From Spirochaetaceae bacterium (GTDB lineage Bacteria > Spirochaetota > Spirochaetia > B11-G9): a stretch of DNA of 64,000 bases. Position numbers and translations under genes: made by a program. The notes beneath the pieces are model-generated. The model ran no database searches and had not been told where the DNA came from. It saw only the letters and a list, made by a program, of their open reading frames with translations. Shown here piece after piece: positions 41,203-48,956 of the stretch; position 1 is the stretch's first letter, and each line of letters starts with the position of its first letter. The stretch is from assembly GCA_015493635.1 (NCBI GenBank), contig WGCU01000027.1, positions 1-64,000 on the forward strand. The letters run 5' to 3'.

Positions 41203-42311
41203 AAGATACGAACTATTACCTTGCACTTGATCTGGGAACAGGGCTCGGAACAAAACTTGCACTGTTTGAAGGGACTCAGAAACAGATCGCGGAAGATATT
41301 CTGAAAGTTGATAAGTATGGAGAGGGGTTTCATTCCTATGCGGCGGCACTTGAACGTGCAATTCGTATATTCATAAAAAAATCTGATGTTACTCTTAAAA
41401 AAATACGTGCAGTGGGTATTGCAAGTGCAGGAATCCTGAAAGATGATGGGACGTTTCAACTTATTCAGAATTCACCTGAGTTTAACGGATATAATCTGAA
41501 AAAAACCCTGGAAGATATCTTTAACCTTCCAACAGCAATTGATAATGATGCAAATGCGGGGGGGCTTGCAGAATGGAGCATTCTCCGTATGGAAATACTC
41601 TACTGGGTATTTGGAGGAGGCTGGGGGGGAGTATGGATTTCCAGAGAGGGGGATGTACGTTTTCCTGCTACCAACTGGGACGGCAGGGATGAATCGCTGC
41701 ACCCGACCAACGAACCGGGATACATTATTCCCCTGAACAAGCTTGATTTAAAAAATTTGTTCTATGAGGTACATGCTTCCTATGAACGTTTTGAAAGGAT
41801 CCTGGCTGAAGAAAAAGGGGAAAATGCTCTTACCGGACCCTGCGGCAGTACAGACACCCTGCGGGCGGAAGTTATCCTTTCCGGTCCGGGACGCTGCCGT
41901 CTTTTCAGAGCCATTGTCGGTGATGATACTTTCTATGAGCGTTTTCTTGATATTAGAGAAACAGAGAAAATGACTGATCCTTCTGTTGCCGGAGAATACA
42001 TAAGCAAGCTTTCCAGCATGAGGGTGGAATCAGCAATAAATACCGACAGATTGTACGGCAAGGTCCTTGCGTATGCTACCCGGGAACTTCTTCGAAGAGC
42101 AAGAAAAGACGGTATGCCTGAAAATATTCCCATATGTCTGGGAGGAAAGCCCAGCTACGCGCTGCCCTATTTCGGACCGTCCACGCAGCGGGTTCTCGGA
42201 AAGATGGGCTTTATGAATTATTTAAGACCTTCTGTCATTGATGAAAGAGGAATCAATGCAAACCTGATGGGAGCAGCAGTGCTGGCATCCAAGACTATCG
42301 GGATGCTGTAG
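41199..42311 (+). CDS. ROK family protein (sugar-kinase-like)
   Basis: A protein of the actin-like ATPase fold, 370 residues, close to ROK glucokinases and repressors. The phosphate-1 loop is LALDLGTGLGTKLALFE, and the catalytic Asp lies in TAIDNDANAGGLAEW. There is no N-terminal helix-turn-helix, so it is not a repressor. The Cys-rich zinc motif CxCGxxGCxE of canonical ROK kinases is absent. It could be a sugar kinase with an unusual substrate or a sensor. It is translationally coupled to DUF1893, and its 3' end overlaps the VWA-FHA gene on the other strand by 17 bases. Confidence 0.8.
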   Translation: MKDTNYYLALDLGTGLGTKLALFEGTQKQIAEDILKVDKYGEGFHSYAAALERAIRIFIKKSDVTLKKIRAVGIASAGILKDDGTFQLIQNSPEFNGYNLKKTLEDIFNLPTAIDNDANAGGLAEWSILRMEILYWVFGGGWGGVWISREGDVRFPATNWDGRDESLHPTNEPGYIIPLNKLDLKNLFYEVHASYERFERILAEEKGENALTGPCGSTDTLRAEVILSGPGRCRLFRAIVGDDTFYERFLDIRETEKMTDPSVAGEYISKLSSMRVESAINTDRLYGKVLAYATRELLRRARKDGMPENIPICLGGKPSYALPYFGPSTQRVLGKMGFMNYLRPSVIDERGINANLMGAAVLASKTIGML

Positions 42312-43671
42312 ATTTCTCCGGTGCATCAAAAACTATCGTTGCACCTTCCACATTGATTACATCTCCCGGTTTTAATTCCCGCTTTTTTGTCAGATTGTTA
42401 TTGACGCTGATACTCTCATCCGAAAGTATTGTATATGTCCCTTTCTTTTCATCTCTCACTATTTCCGCATGGTTCTCTTTCATTTCTGAAATCCCCGCTA
42501 CGGTAAAATCTGCCTGAGGAGAACGGCCTATCACCGTCCGGTGCGAATCGATAACAATTGTCCGTTGCAGAGGTTTTCCTGTCCCTGTGGGAATCATGAA
42601 AATCTCAGCTGCTGATGCTGCCTTTTCAAAACGTATAAGCATTAAAAGAGCCCATAGTATCAGTGTCAGACCAAAAACAATGAGAGAAAACAAAACGGGT
42701 TTATCTGCTGGACTTCCCATCAGCGACCGGGCAGAATAGGTCCGGGTATCGGACACTCCCGCATAGCGGATGGTAACCGCCGGCGCTTCCAGAAATACAA
42801 GAGGAGCTGCCACGGTAAGCCTGTATTCTTTTTCTATCCGTTTTTTTATTTCACCATAAACACCGGAGAGTTCTCCGGCAGTTGAGGCACTGTACACTGT
42901 TCCCCCTGAGCCGGTACTTATGGAGGAAAGAGCCTTGTCCGTTCTCAGAGAAAAATTAATTCCATAAAGCGTAACACCGTCCTTCTGAAGAGGAATAAGG
43001 GCATCTTCCGGCTGATAAAGTTTTTCTCCGAAATCAGGATGAATCTTTCCCGATTTAGTAAAATAGGGATAGTTTTCTCCATCAGAAAGAAGAACAACAG
43101 CCTTTCTTCCAGAATACTTTGATAAATCTTCTGCTGCACGTCCAATAGAATAGTATAATTCAGTATACGCATCTTTATTATCCGGTTTTTTTATTTCGGA
43201 CAAAGCCGCTTCAACCGTATCCATATTATTTTCCGGTTCAGCCAGCAGATGATAGCGGGTATTAAACACTGCAAGACCAACCCTTACGTCATCATTATGA
43301 ATACTACCTAAAAAATCTTTCACAGCCCTGACAGCATGATCCATTCTGTGGGAGGTGTACATACTTCCGGAATTATCCAGGACCAGCAGAAAGGTAATCT
43401 TTGTATTCGATGATTCGTTTTTATCTATGCTTACAATTTCTGCCGGTGTCATTCCGTGTGCCGTTTCATGTTCCGCACGGAGAAGAGAAGAATTTACAGA
43501 GGAAAGAGGAACACCAGCCCTATCCGTTATACTCACATAGCAGTCTACCGTTGATGAAGTAAGCAGCTTTGCTGAATCTATCTGTGTAATTGTCAGGTTC
43601 TGTGCCGGAATGATTCCCGGCAGGAACAACACGCCTGCACATAAAAATATAATAATTCTATTTCTTTTCAT
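42295..43671 (-). CDS. VWA-FHA domain membrane protein
   Basis: A 458-residue exported protein. A perfect GGAGGAG before ATG at 43671 and a signal peptide (NRIIIFLCAGVLFLPGIIPAQ) fix the start. A von Willebrand A domain follows with an intact metal site: DNSGS, a Thr in AYTELY and SDGEN. A membrane helix (VLFSLIVFGLTLILWALLMLI) then leads to a cytoplasmic C-terminal FHA domain (VIGRSPQADFTV ... HAEIVRD ... SVNNN). So the VWA part is probably outside and the phosphothreonine-binding FHA part inside. It is the last gene of the kinase operon and could bind a target of that kinase. Confidence 0.88.
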   Translation of the reverse strand: MKRNRIIIFLCAGVLFLPGIIPAQNLTITQIDSAKLLTSSTVDCYVSITDRAGVPLSSVNSSLLRAEHETAHGMTPAEIVSIDKNESSNTKITFLLVLDNSGSMYTSHRMDHAVRAVKDFLGSIHNDDVRVGLAVFNTRYHLLAEPENNMDTVEAALSEIKKPDNKDAYTELYYSIGRAAEDLSKYSGRKAVVLLSDGENYPYFTKSGKIHPDFGEKLYQPEDALIPLQKDGVTLYGINFSLRTDKALSSISTGSGGTVYSASTAGELSGVYGEIKKRIEKEYRLTVAAPLVFLEAPAVTIRYAGVSDTRTYSARSLMGSPADKPVLFSLIVFGLTLILWALLMLIRFEKAASAAEIFMIPTGTGKPLQRTIVIDSHRTVIGRSPQADFTVAGISEMKENHAEIVRDEKKGTYTILSDESISVNNNLTKKRELKPGDVINVEGATIVFDAPEKSTASR

Positions 43672-43690
43672 CGTTCTCCTCCAGGGAAGA

Positions 43691-44575
43691 TTATTTCGGC
43701 AGGTACAAAAGTTTTGCATCTCCAAGCTGAATAACATCTTCATATTTCAGTTCATACTCCGCTGTTTTTTTGTCATTAACAATAACGGTTCCGTTTAACG
43801 GCTGAATGGATACTCCTCCCCGTCCTGCGGATAATACAGCATGATATTTTTCAACACCGCCATAGTTGCCAAGAGGAATATGAGCCCGCGGTGACGCTCC
43901 TATCCTTGTTTTCCGCATAACAAGTACATACTCTTTACCCCGGTACATACCGGTAAGAATTTTTATACGCCCGTACGAACGAAAATATTCAAAAAGAGAA
44001 AGGGCAAGTCCTGTACAGGCACCGAGGATCATTATCCCGGCGCCCCGTGCCGCAAGACTGTTTGCCCATTGTTTTACCAGGAATTCAAGTACCATCCCTC
44101 CTGTAATTCCTCCAATAAAACCACCAAGACTACCGATAGCGGTCCGCCTGAACGACATACTTCTTATTCCATCAATGGAACCGATAACAAGTCCAAGAAG
44201 AGCCCATCCAAACGTACGTGAAACAGGGACTATAACTGAATTTGTTGCGGAAGAAGAAAATATTTCAGTATTTCCAATCTGATACAGCAACCACTGAACG
44301 AGAAGAAGCGCCCCGGCTCCGCCGGCAAAACCCAGCAATGCTCCTGCAAATCCCCCCTTTACTGAACGGGAAGTGTCTGAAAACAGGATCCCTTCGGCAC
44401 TTCCGAAAAAAAATCCAAAAAGCAGCCCTATCGATCCGCCGGAAAGTATATTCCACACAAAATAGTTTCCAATCAGTTCACCGTAACTGAGAAGAATCTC
44501 AATGACTGCCCACGAGGCCGCGCCGGCAGTAAGACCAATGGCAACCATGAAAATTTTTTTAAAAAATGCTGTCAT
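43691..44575 (-). CDS. Multi-pass membrane protein with C-terminal FHA domain
   Basis: A 294-residue protein. Five or six hydrophobic, glycine-rich helices (GGFAGALLGFAGGAGALLLVQW; GSLGGFIGGITGGMVLEFLV) occupy the first 205 residues, followed by an FHA-like domain (about 210-294, TRIGASPRAHIPLGNYGGVEKYHAVLS ... VIVNDKKT). The FHA core residues R, S and H are kept, though N is in an unusual VNDK context. AAGGAG lies five bases before ATG. It is encoded nine bases below the Ser/Thr kinase gene, so phosphothreonine-dependent docking of the kinase or its substrates is likely. Confidence 0.82.
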   Translation of the reverse strand: MTAFFKKIFMVAIGLTAGAASWAVIEILLSYGELIGNYFVWNILSGGSIGLLFGFFFGSAEGILFSDTSRSVKGGFAGALLGFAGGAGALLLVQWLLYQIGNTEIFSSSATNSVIVPVSRTFGWALLGLVIGSIDGIRSMSFRRTAIGSLGGFIGGITGGMVLEFLVKQWANSLAARGAGIMILGACTGLALSLFEYFRSYGRIKILTGMYRGKEYVLVMRKTRIGASPRAHIPLGNYGGVEKYHAVLSAGRGGVSIQPLNGTVIVNDKKTAEYELKYEDVIQLGDAKLLYLPK

Positions 44576-44584
44576 ACAAACTCC

Positions 44585-46447
44585 TTACTTTATCTCATAC
44601 CCAAGTTTACCCGTATTCGGATCCACGGTAGCCAGAATGGTAACCCCTTCTCCTTTTCTGATGGCCAGAGGAAAAGAGACATGATCTTTCATATACCGAA
44701 GGTCAAGGGTGTAGTGGGCAGGAGATATGTTCCCTTTAAAATGGAGACTCTTATTAAAATAAAGCACTGCAGGAACCTTATCCGCTGACAGGATATGATC
44801 TAAACCATTAAGCGTACATTTAATACCCTTCCTGTTTCTGCTTAGCACAAGTGTTCCGGGAAGCGGTACAAGTCCGGCATTTATATTCAGTACATTCTGA
44901 CCGGTTTCAATCTTAAGAGAAAATATTTTTGGATAATATCCTTCATGTTTTATCATGAATTTATAGATATTCCCCCCTGTTAAAGATTCAGTATCCGTCA
45001 AAGGAACCCATCTTCTGTTTTGAGAAAGAAAAACAGTAACGCCACTGGAAATTTTTTGATTATTCTCTGTATCAATAGCTATAACATGCACTGAAGTAGC
45101 ATAATGTGCTGCCGGTACCCTGTTTACCAGAATCACAGTACCTGATTTTTTTCCGGAAGTTCCTTTCGGCTGCACAAGAAAGGAGTACCAGGTAACCGAA
45201 TCTTCTATCTTTAACTTGGCCCTGTATGCTCCTGCGGGAAGAAATACCGGTACTGATGAAAACCGGTATCGGTCTGATCTCTTAAATTTTGTGTACAGAA
45301 AAATAACTCTCCGGTCTGGCACAGAAGGGATCTGTTTGTTATCGTCTTTATAGAGCCCGGCATTGAGATAAATCTTGTCAGGAGGCTGTGTCCCTTGGGG
45401 TATAAAAACAGAAAAAGTAACTGAATTATACTCCGAAGGATGAAGCAACGTATTATGAAAGCCGGTAAAATAACTGAATAATCCGGCAATGGTAAGAGTA
45501 CAGATTACAAAGGCAGCACTAATTCCTTTAAGAAGCAGACGCTTCTTTTTCCTCTGATGCGGCTTTTCCGGATCATCCCCTTTAGCCAAGCCTGCAACTG
45601 CTTCAGTGAGCTCTCCCTTGTCCCAGTGCTTAAGGTATCGTTCCAGTTCCTTGATAGCAGGTTCTAAATTCATGTATCTCTTCCCCGGATCTGTTCTCAT
45701 TGCTTTCCGGATAAAGGTCTTAAGCACCGGCGCAATATGAGGATTATACTTACGCGGCGGTGGATACTTTCCCTTTTGAATGGTAAGGACGAGATCAGGA
45801 CTGAAAAATCCCGGGAAGGGTTTTTTACCTGTACATAATTCATAGGCAAGCACTCCCAGCGCATATATATCTGCCCTTAAATCGACATTCTTTGTATTTT
45901 GAAACTGTTCAGGTGCCATATAACCGGGCGTACCAAGGCTCATGCCCTCCCGGGTGAGATCTTTTTCCAGGTCTTCATCAGAAACAGCAATACCAAAATC
46001 AACAAGCTTTACTTCTCCTGTTTTTGACAGAATTATATTTGCCGGTTTTATATCCCGGTGGATTACCTTTTTCTCATGAGCGTAACTCAGCGCTAAAGCA
46101 GCCTTGTACAGGATATATGCGGCAGTTCCGTTATCAAGATAGCGTTGTTTCTTTATAACGCTGTCCAGTGCACAGCCGTCTATAAACTCAAGGACTATGT
46201 AGTACGATGTCCCCAGCTTAAAGTGGTCATACATATTAACCACCCCGTCATGGCGGAAATCCATAAGAATTCTCGCTTCCCGTTTAAACCGCTCGGTAAT
46301 GTCCTTACGCCCTCTCAGAGTCAGCTTTTTAATGATAACGGGCCGGCCGAGAGTTGGATGAATAGCTTTATATACAGCTCCCATCCCGCCTTTGGCAATA
46401 AGTGATTCAACCTTGTACTTTCCTATACTTTCAGGGATTCGCGCCAT
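44585..46447 (-). CDS. Transmembrane Ser/Thr protein kinase
   Basis: A PknB-like Hanks-type kinase of 620 residues. The kinase domain (about 10-275) has the glycine loop AKGGMGAVY, Lys in VIIKK, catalytic HRDIKPAN, DFG, an activation loop with several Thr/Ser (DLTREGMSLGTPGYMAPE) and the APE motif; all catalytic residues are present. One membrane helix (about 307-330) leads to an outside domain of about 290 residues, beta-rich and not PASTA-like. Its start overlaps the phosphatase gene by 17 bases. The extracellular part presumably senses something; the neighbours supply a phosphatase, two FHA readers and possible substrates. Confidence 0.93.
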   Translation of the reverse strand: MARIPESIGKYKVESLIAKGGMGAVYKAIHPTLGRPVIIKKLTLRGRKDITERFKREARILMDFRHDGVVNMYDHFKLGTSYYIVLEFIDGCALDSVIKKQRYLDNGTAAYILYKAALALSYAHEKKVIHRDIKPANIILSKTGEVKLVDFGIAVSDEDLEKDLTREGMSLGTPGYMAPEQFQNTKNVDLRADIYALGVLAYELCTGKKPFPGFFSPDLVLTIQKGKYPPPRKYNPHIAPVLKTFIRKAMRTDPGKRYMNLEPAIKELERYLKHWDKGELTEAVAGLAKGDDPEKPHQRKKKRLLLKGISAAFVICTLTIAGLFSYFTGFHNTLLHPSEYNSVTFSVFIPQGTQPPDKIYLNAGLYKDDNKQIPSVPDRRVIFLYTKFKRSDRYRFSSVPVFLPAGAYRAKLKIEDSVTWYSFLVQPKGTSGKKSGTVILVNRVPAAHYATSVHVIAIDTENNQKISSGVTVFLSQNRRWVPLTDTESLTGGNIYKFMIKHEGYYPKIFSLKIETGQNVLNINAGLVPLPGTLVLSRNRKGIKCTLNGLDHILSADKVPAVLYFNKSLHFKGNISPAHYTLDLRYMKDHVSFPLAIRKGEGVTILATVDPNTGKLGYEIK

Positions 46448-47453
46448 AGAGCTCCACTCCTTTACGAGGCAGAATAATAATATTTTTATCAGAAGAAAAC
46501 TTTGCCATATCAGTGATAAATACTACATTATATGTATCAGGATTATGGATCTGAATAAACTTTCCCTCAGCCCGGGTACGGTATCTGCCGGGTACGGCCC
46601 GGTGTCCGCCGAACATCCGGGCAGCAGGATTCCGGGGGAAATATTCTTCAAGATAAGCTGCAACACTTCCCTCTTCCGCTCCTCCGTTTGGAGTCCAGGT
46701 AAGGTCAAAAAGAATCTCCCTCTTAATGAGAGCATCTATCAGTTCCTTCCGGGAATGATATCTCCGTGGTTCGGCGTGTGTGACACAAAACCCGTTTCCT
46801 ACAGCAAATCCCGGTAATCTTTTTTCAAATTCATAGTACTTCCAGAATATATCCTCCGGTATGAACCGGTGAAACCATGAGGCAACCATGGCACCTTCAT
46901 ACACAAACTTACCAAAAGACCTGTTATCTTCAGAATTCTCATTGGCAATATTTTCATGGTTCCCCTTTAAGAAATGGAAACTGTCCGGAAAAGATGCTTT
47001 AAGTTCCATCACCATCATCATGACACCAAGGCTTTCCCTCATTTCATCATCCATCGCTTTGTGCTTTCTAAAGCCGCCTCTATATTCTTCAAAAGCTGTA
47101 CGCCACCGCTTAACAGCCCTTGTTTCAGCATGGAAGCCATCTCCAACACAAACAATCTGAATCTGGTTTTTCTCCAACGCCTCAAATACCGGCAGGGTAC
47201 TGAACGGAGGTTTCCAAGAAAGAAGTGATCCCAGAAATCCAGTCCGTGCATGAAGATCCGGAACAATAATTGTCGGAAGGGCTTTAAGTAGAATAAGCCC
47301 TCCTGGTTCACCGCTGCTCCCGGGAGGACGGATAGACGGAGATTCGTTTTTTAATGCATACAATACCTTCTCCAGAGAAATTCCGATCTCCCGTGGATCA
47401 GGAAAAGTCTTTCCCGCCATTCCGCGTATTCCTTCCAGTATCCTATTCATCAT
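46431..47453 (-). CDS. Metallophosphoesterase (calcineurin/PP2A-like)
   Basis: A dinuclear metal phosphoesterase of 340 residues with the motifs PDLHAR (variant of GDxHG), GDGFHAE (variant of GDxxDRG) and GNHEN, followed by FCVTHAEPR and FGGHRAVPG giving the later His ligands. The first motif has D-L-H in place of D-x-H-G. There is no signal peptide, so it acts in the cytoplasm. It is placed between the 169-residue protein and the Ser/Thr kinase in one operon, so it is probably the phosphatase opposing the kinase, but small-molecule substrates cannot be excluded. Confidence 0.88.
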   Translation of the reverse strand: MMNRILEGIRGMAGKTFPDPREIGISLEKVLYALKNESPSIRPPGSSGEPGGLILLKALPTIIVPDLHARTGFLGSLLSWKPPFSTLPVFEALEKNQIQIVCVGDGFHAETRAVKRWRTAFEEYRGGFRKHKAMDDEMRESLGVMMMVMELKASFPDSFHFLKGNHENIANENSEDNRSFGKFVYEGAMVASWFHRFIPEDIFWKYYEFEKRLPGFAVGNGFCVTHAEPRRYHSRKELIDALIKREILFDLTWTPNGGAEEGSVAAYLEEYFPRNPAARMFGGHRAVPGRYRTRAEGKFIQIHNPDTYNVVFITDMAKFSSDKNIIILPRKGVELYGANP

Positions 47454-47963
47454 TTATTCAAATATGAGGGTTTTGTTAACTTCAATAAAATCGTCTGCAA
47501 GCACCTGCGTAACATCCATGAGCAGATTTTCATCCTTAATAATAACAATCTTGTATACAGGAGAACTCTTGAGTATGGGACCAATCAAAAATTCTGCCGA
47601 TTCTCCGGGAACCACATCTCCTTTCAATGTTGATCCGCTCTTTTCGGCCCGTTCAGGAACATCGGTACGTAAACCGATACTTGCGTATTCCACCCTTCGC
47701 CCATCTTCTTCCAGCGGTCCAATGGTCAGCAACGATCCTGACTGTGTCATTATTAATCCGCCTCTTGTTTCATCGGCAGCATAAACATCCGATTCCTCAA
47801 GGTTCCTTTCGGATACCTGATTATTGAAGTGCTCTTCCTTTTCAAGCCATCCCCTGGCAAGAACTTCCAGCGCATCTGCACCTTCCGGTAAATTTATCGA
47901 ACCGGCAAGCTGCTTTAAATGATTTTGTACCTCTTCCGGTACTTTTGCAAAAAAATCACTCAT
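47454..47963 (-). CDS. Protein of an unrecognised family, homologue of the HU-fusion protein
   Basis: I know no named family for this 169-residue soluble protein. It is clearly homologous to the N-terminal two thirds of the divergently encoded HU-fusion protein. Both share an N-terminal helical part (PEEVQNHLKQL versus PANIRMHLESL) and a strongly conserved core, SGSLLTIGPLEED.RRVEYASIGLRTDVP. A later VYKIVII/VYKIAVC strand also matches. GGAGGTAAAAG precedes ATG. It heads the phosphatase-kinase-FHA-VWA operon, so it may be a kinase substrate or a regulator of the HU-fusion protein through pairing of the shared domain. Confidence 0.75.
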   Translation of the reverse strand: MSDFFAKVPEEVQNHLKQLAGSINLPEGADALEVLARGWLEKEEHFNNQVSERNLEESDVYAADETRGGLIMTQSGSLLTIGPLEEDGRRVEYASIGLRTDVPERAEKSGSTLKGDVVPGESAEFLIGPILKSSPVYKIVIIKDENLLMDVTQVLADDFIEVNKTLIFE

Positions 47964-48039
47964 CTTTTACCTCCACATGGTTTATCTACATCCATATATA
48001 CTACTATTTTCCATAAAAAACCATTTTTTTCGTAAATAT

Positions 48040-48068
48040 TTGAAAATAATTACTTTCCGTGCTATACT
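48040..48068 (+). promoter_or_regulatory. Sigma-70 promoter of the HU-fusion gene
   Basis: TTGAAA (48040-48045) and TATACT (48063-48068) are spaced by exactly 17 bp. Transcription should begin near 48075. That leaves almost no leader for the ATG at 48081 but a normal one for the GTG at 48096, and this supports the later start. Confidence 0.7.
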
Positions 48069-48095
48069 TCCACCATATACATGAAGGAGCGAATA

Positions 48096-48956
48096 GTGTC
48101 ATTTAATTCATTGCCAGCAAACATCAGAATGCATCTTGAATCTCTGATAAAGATATCAGAACTACCGGATACCAATGATTTCCGGGAAATCCTTGCGGAT
48201 ACATGGAACAAAAAATGTCTTTTATTTGAGCAGCAGACAGGAATGCTTGACTTGGAGATGATTGAAACCTTTCCGGAGACTGATCCCCGCGGTATTATTG
48301 TATTAACCTATTCAGGATCCATCCTCAGTATTGGACCTCTGGAAGAAGAAAAGACAAGGGAGGTAGAATACGCAAGTATCAGCCTCCGGAGTGATGTACC
48401 CAAAACAGTTTCCATAGTTAATACCGCATTAGGCGCACCTGTTAAAACCGGTTCATCAATTGTATTTTCCAGAGGAAAATTAAAAAAAACATCGGCAGTT
48501 TATAAAATAGCTGTATGTAATACTTCCATTCCCACAGAGACGCAGAAAGAGCGGATACATGAGGGTATGATTTTTCTTACCAACGGTTTCATGAAAATCA
48601 ACCGTAGTATCTACATAGACAAAACAAATATTCCGGATCAGTTTACCGCAAAATCCATGGCAAGATATATAGCAAAAAAATATAATATAACTGGTACTCT
48701 GGCCAAAAAGATTATTGATGACTACATCCTTCTTATTGAGACAGGAATGATGCTTGGAGAAAGTGTGCCATTAGGACGGATTGGACGATTTTCCCTAAAA
48801 CAAAAAGGCCCCCAGAAAGCAAGAATACTGCGGCATCCCGAAACAGGGGAAGAAATAACCGTTAAAGCAAAGCCTCCGGTATCCGTACCCAAAATATCCT
48901 TCAGCACCTATATAAAAGAGAAAGCGGCATCATTGAAGGACGATACTATCGTTTAA
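48096..48956 (+). CDS. HU/IHF-type DNA-binding domain fused to an unrecognised N-terminal domain
   Basis: A 286-residue protein. Residues 1-180 are homologous to the 169-residue protein encoded next door (YSGSILSIGPLEEE.REVEYASISLRSDVP). The C-terminus (about 185-280) is an HU/IHF fold: TAKSMARYIAKKYNITGTLAKKIIDDY, GESVPLGRIGRFSL and the DNA-intercalating Pro in HPETGEEITVKA. The ORF begins at 48081, but GGAG at 48086-48089 and alignment with the paralogue's MSDFF start favour the GTG at 48096. It probably bends or coats DNA under control of its N-terminal domain. The gene is divergent from the kinase operon. Confidence 0.85.
   Translation: MSFNSLPANIRMHLESLIKISELPDTNDFREILADTWNKKCLLFEQQTGMLDLEMIETFPETDPRGIIVLTYSGSILSIGPLEEEKTREVEYASISLRSDVPKTVSIVNTALGAPVKTGSSIVFSRGKLKKTSAVYKIAVCNTSIPTETQKERIHEGMIFLTNGFMKINRSIYIDKTNIPDQFTAKSMARYIAKKYNITGTLAKKIIDDYILLIETGMMLGESVPLGRIGRFSLKQKGPQKARILRHPETGEEITVKAKPPVSVPKISFSTYIKEKAASLKDDTIV

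Follow-up and report, generated by a model that had tools for sequence, protein, structure and literature searches.

A domain shared by a kinase operon and a divergent HU fusion protein in Spirochaetota

HU proteins normally stand alone, at about 90 aa. Why, then, does a spirochaete encode an HU domain behind a second domain of 173 residues, and why does a paralogue of that second domain form the first gene of a divergently transcribed Ser/Thr kinase operon? The window in which this arrangement is found is a 64,000-nucleotide stretch of a contig from a Spirochaetaceae bacterium. We prefer the view, to which we give a probability of about one half, that the shared domain of about 170 residues is a signalling or docking domain that couples a membrane module of kinase, phosphatase and FHA proteins to DNA-binding outputs. 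The features of the locus are as follows.

42295..43743, minus strand: membrane protein with VWA and FHA domains, 482 aa; last gene of the kinase operon
43691..44575, minus strand: membrane protein with a C-terminal FHA domain, 294 aa
44585..46447, minus strand: Hanks-type Ser/Thr kinase, 620 aa (PF00069, E 1.4e-48)
46431..47453, minus strand: metallophosphoesterase, 340 aa, with the PPP-like motifs PDLHAR, GDGFHAE and GNHE
47454..47963, minus strand: small protein of 169 aa made up of the shared domain alone; heads the kinase operon, with the Shine-Dalgarno sequence GGAGG upstream
47964..48095: divergent intergenic region, 132 bp
48096..48956, plus strand: HU-fusion protein of 286 aa with a GTG start, transcribed away from the kinase operon
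48096..48614, plus strand: shared domain within the fusion (residues 1-173); helices, a seven-strand sheet or barrel and a long C-terminal helix
48615..48641, plus strand: linker of the fusion (residues 174-182), pLDDT below 50
48642..48938, plus strand: HU/IHF domain of the fusion, with the beta-arm tip motif RHPETGEE

The two divergent proteins

The C-terminal 93 residues of the fusion form an HU/IHF domain (PF00216, E 4.7e-11; score 43.2 bits, cut-off 22.4). The Foldseek matches were to HU/IHF proteins (Anabaena HU, 1p71, E 3.6e-5), with the helix-helix-strand-arm-helix fold, and the RNPxTGE-like arm tip is present. The HU fold with a tip proline in HPETGEE, as given in the initial annotation, is thus borne out. 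What sets the protein apart from HU/IHF is its length and its N-terminal domain. HU-HIG (PF18291) and CCDC81-like (PF18175) proteins also carry an HU-type domain together with extra parts, but the fusion scores below both cut-offs (15.9 against 26.2 bits and 18.3 against 35, respectively) and the matches are confined to the generic HU part; we therefore assign it to neither family. An ordinary HU is encoded separately in the same genome (C26:111587-111853). The reading frame of the fusion is already open from an ATG at 48081. The GTG at 48096, the start chosen earlier, is the likelier one, since AAGGAG (48084-48089) lies 6 bases upstream of it and the homologues begin there.

The N-terminal part of the fusion is 39% identical to the small protein over 138 aa (BLASTP, E 9e-28), and in a MAFFT alignment it matches the small protein along its full length. 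The shared region and its core, IGPLEE..R.VEYASI.LR.DVP, are as first described. The source genome holds exactly two copies of the domain, these two. An AlphaFold2 model of the domain, built from 16 small proteins (pLDDT 89, pTM 0.84), begins with two helices and a long helix, continues with seven strands and closes with another long helix; a model of the fusion from a separate alignment has the same order, followed by the weak linker and HU. The positions that vary least between the small and HU copies are W, K and F of the long helix; S-G-S, R, Y, S, R, D and P; a further S beyond these; and F and N of the final helix. Small, HU and third-clade copies (see below) alike show hardly any variation in the polar set T, S, G, S, R, Y, S, R, D, part of which persists in the most distant copies.

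The domain had been said to belong to no described family, and this stands in the libraries used: it matches nothing above cut-off in Pfam, NCBIfam, PHROGs or PADLOC, and has no trustworthy match in the PDB. Foldseek searches with the domain model gave nothing at E 0.001 among either PDB or viral structures, the best PDB match being BcsA (E 0.04, probability 0.08, TM below 0.25). The weak BcsA matches suggested a PilZ domain, which was rejected after no PilZ match appeared at E 5 in 16 members. A match to the 8adn proteasome profile (E 0.0058) and matches to RNase III or GeBP-like Pfam families, the latter in single members only, were judged to be chance. The N-terminal region is therefore not a known domain with some other role. 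A literature search for the domain family or the module also found no description. Thus neither the domain nor its dedicated fusion to HU has a description in the libraries and papers searched, and the same goes for the parallel pairing with an FHA-LuxR-type regulator; the operon enzymes and the HU domain each belong to known families.

As to these enzymes, the phosphatase falls just under the PF00149 cut-off and weakly matches the Ser/Thr phosphatase BSU1. It has PDLHAR instead of GDxHG and GDGFHAE instead of GDxxDRG, and the likely metal ligands are kept. The FHA domain of the 294-aa membrane protein, judged by eye, is without the canonical Arg. The kinase matches the PD-T4-6 defence-kinase profile at E 6.6e-77. 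Such models match Hanks kinases generally, and an anti-phage role was set aside because the kinase alone matches.

Conservation of the neighbourhood and origin of the fusion

The domain is present in 104 of 395 Spirochaetia genomes, and also in Spirochaetota outside the class. A scan of all genomes with two peptide patterns, a search that distant relatives elsewhere could escape, found 21 domain loci, all in Spirochaetota. Viral contigs and phage records yielded no relative. In about 50 distinct loci from many families (51 entries minus two duplicates, plus this locus), the small gene is followed by genes for a PPP-type phosphatase, a Hanks kinase, an FHA membrane protein and a VWA-FHA protein; a few of the contigs stop ahead of the last genes, and in two loci (L087, L103) the phosphatase is missing and the small gene directly adjoins the kinase gene.

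In 34 loci the HU fusion and the small gene are divergently arranged; in two (L128, L129) the fusion lies convergently at the operon end, and in at least 15 loci from several families it is found elsewhere, away from the operon. The sample was partly chosen for pairs, and these figures are to be read as counts, not rates. Adjacency is therefore common and not required, and a universal pairing is ruled out. The link first drawn between the domain and the kinase genes survives: throughout Spirochaetia, homologues are found both next to each other and next to the kinase genes.

A tree built from 109 domain sequences places the 51 HU fusions in a single clade (support 100/99), and a quick enlarged tree does so for 55 of 55 fusions. 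As judged from these trees, a single origin is hence the most likely history: an ancient duplication and fusion took place once, and both lines have since been retained and inherited together.

Two further clades extend the picture. The third contains 14 stand-alone copies (support 0.998), of which 11 are divergent from a gene for an FHA-GerE (LuxR-type) regulator: L106 (7371-8569), L110 (6487-7647), L169-L173, L175, L176, L178 and L181. The FHA-GerE architecture was checked in four of the 11, and these regulators have canonical FHA motifs; the exceptions to the pairing are L174, L177 and L194. The third clade thus ties the domain independently to phospho-recognition and to the binding of DNA. 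In the fourth clade, of eight members (L125:6442-7311, L138:6213-7103, L186-L188, L190-L192), the domain is fused to a conserved C-terminal region, DLFNKW..WF.IGG...YKW.ESEKK.FDIGLMKALE, which is not HU and has no Pfam or PDB match. DNA is therefore not the only possible output. In one very distant relative (L121, 7104-9023), the stop of the domain gene overlaps the start (TAATG) of a gene for a 94-aa HU (PF00216, 5.8e-22), so that domain and HU follow each other in the order seen in the fusion. Such an overlap is absent from three other distant relatives. In L121 the HU gene is itself followed by one for a 374-aa protein with an N-terminal HU domain.

A possible route from a membrane module to DNA

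What could such an arrangement be for? The settings have a theme in common, with kinase and FHA genes at one end and DNA-binding proteins at the other, and coupling of the two by the domain is the most economical reading. The single-domain protein would work with the kinase, the phosphatase and the FHA and VWA membrane proteins among which it is encoded. The HU fusion would be the dedicated DNA-binding output of the module, and the commonest one, whose HU part would bend or coat DNA. Its N-terminal domain would receive the signal, probably by pairing with the small paralogue or by binding a partner or ligand of that paralogue, under control of phosphorylation. The initial proposal, that the small protein titrates or recruits the HU fusion, may be correct; it is one of several options and one form that docking could take. 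A point against this reading is that the exposed tails offer no conserved Thr as an obvious phosphosite. More broadly, it is possible, though on balance doubtful, that the domain founds a spirochaete-wide adaptor family, in which one membrane module is plugged into interchangeable outputs (the HU nucleoid protein, the FHA-LuxR-type regulator and an effector) and a phospho-signal is turned directly into chromosome structure.

There are precedents for kinase control of HU. In Myxococcus xanthus, phosphorylation of HU-alpha by Pkn2 prevents its binding to DNA (review PMC6213207), and in Deinococcus the DNA binding of HU is altered by phosphorylation (PMC9900698). Pkn2 and SP-STK of S. pyogenes (PMC6213207) resemble the present case in that a Ser/Thr kinase is linked to a histone-like protein. 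The target there, however, is a plain HU and one of many substrates, not a fusion encoded with the kinase; in the present case phosphorylation is inferred. Another relative is the threonine phosphorylation pathway of type VI secretion (PpkA, PppA and Fha1; e.g., PMC5995506), which also brings kinase, phosphatase and FHA/VWA membrane proteins together in one operon. The phosphatase is of the PP2C type in that pathway but metallophosphoesterase-like here; the extra domain and the proposed HU output are further differences. No secretion genes were seen among the neighbours read, and none of the operon genes is a type VI core gene. Hanks kinases are known to act on HU in a few bacteria, but a kinase module with its own nucleoid protein encoded as a dedicated partner would be a novelty. 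The locus also offers concrete proteins and a few invariant residues with which to test the path of membrane phospho-signals to the chromosome. To our knowledge, signalling of this kind has been little studied in Spirochaetota.

The strongest alternative, which we consider rather unlikely, is that the domain is a sensor that binds a small molecule or peptide through T.SGS, R..Y.S and R.D. The paralogues would then be separate sensors with their own outputs, and the small protein and the fusion need not touch. The near-invariance of the polar set, its distribution across several strands, much like the lining of a pocket, and the barrel-like predicted fold all agree with this. The domain, however, has no structural match to a ligand-binding family, its best PDB match being the one to BcsA given above, and ligand sensing alone leaves the recurrent kinase and FHA partners unexplained.

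Regulation confined to the locus is unlikely. Here the HU fusion would mainly bind the 132-bp promoter region and the small protein would be a co-regulator that modulates expression of the kinase operon, as the divergent arrangement in 34 loci would allow; in the third clade, too, the domain gene is transcribed away from one for a DNA-binding FHA-GerE protein. But at least 17 loci have the fusion either unlinked to the operon or convergent with it, and HU domains bind DNA with little sequence specificity. The intergenic region of this locus, moreover, yielded no promoter or motif above the chance level, the single promoter-like match (48040-48068, plus strand) included. That the HU fusion is simply a lineage-specific nucleoid protein, its neighbourhood left from an ancient tandem duplication and without joint function, is quite improbable: fusions do lie outside the operon in several families and an ordinary HU is also present, but the linkage has been kept over deeply diverged families, the two lines were inherited jointly as separate clades, and the third clade was independently paired with an FHA regulator.

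Variation in the module and in the HU arm

The domain and the phosphatase occur together in 83 of the 395 genomes (Fisher p 8e-31, kinship not corrected for). The domain occurs without a close phosphatase homologue in 21 and the phosphatase without the domain in 49, 44 of which belong to one Treponema-like family (f24). These genomes, and the L087 and L103 operons, rule out that domain and phosphatase always go together. At the f24 loci read (L149-L155, L157, L164-L166), the phosphatase adjoins the kinase, and the genes for the domain, the HU fusion, the FHA membrane protein and the VWA-FHA protein are all missing. The core enzymes thus do not need the HU-fusion output. A small FHA gene lies upstream of the phosphatase and kinase in three of these loci (L149, L150, L152). 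Two genomes more than 90% complete (G002, G004), which share a genus with several carriers, have neither the domain nor any close homologue of the phosphatase; loss of the module is therefore possible.

The HU part varies as well. The arm-tip proline is present in 39 of the 51 related fusions (two rows judged by eye), and DNA bending may be weaker in the 12 from which it is absent (L058, L061-L063, L069, L077, L078, L093, L098, L101, L134, L139). In the clade of the source sequence the fusion ends in [DE]DT[IML][VA], and not in a strongly acidic C-terminal tail of the kind carried by many HU fusions (e.g., L058, L061, L078, L067).
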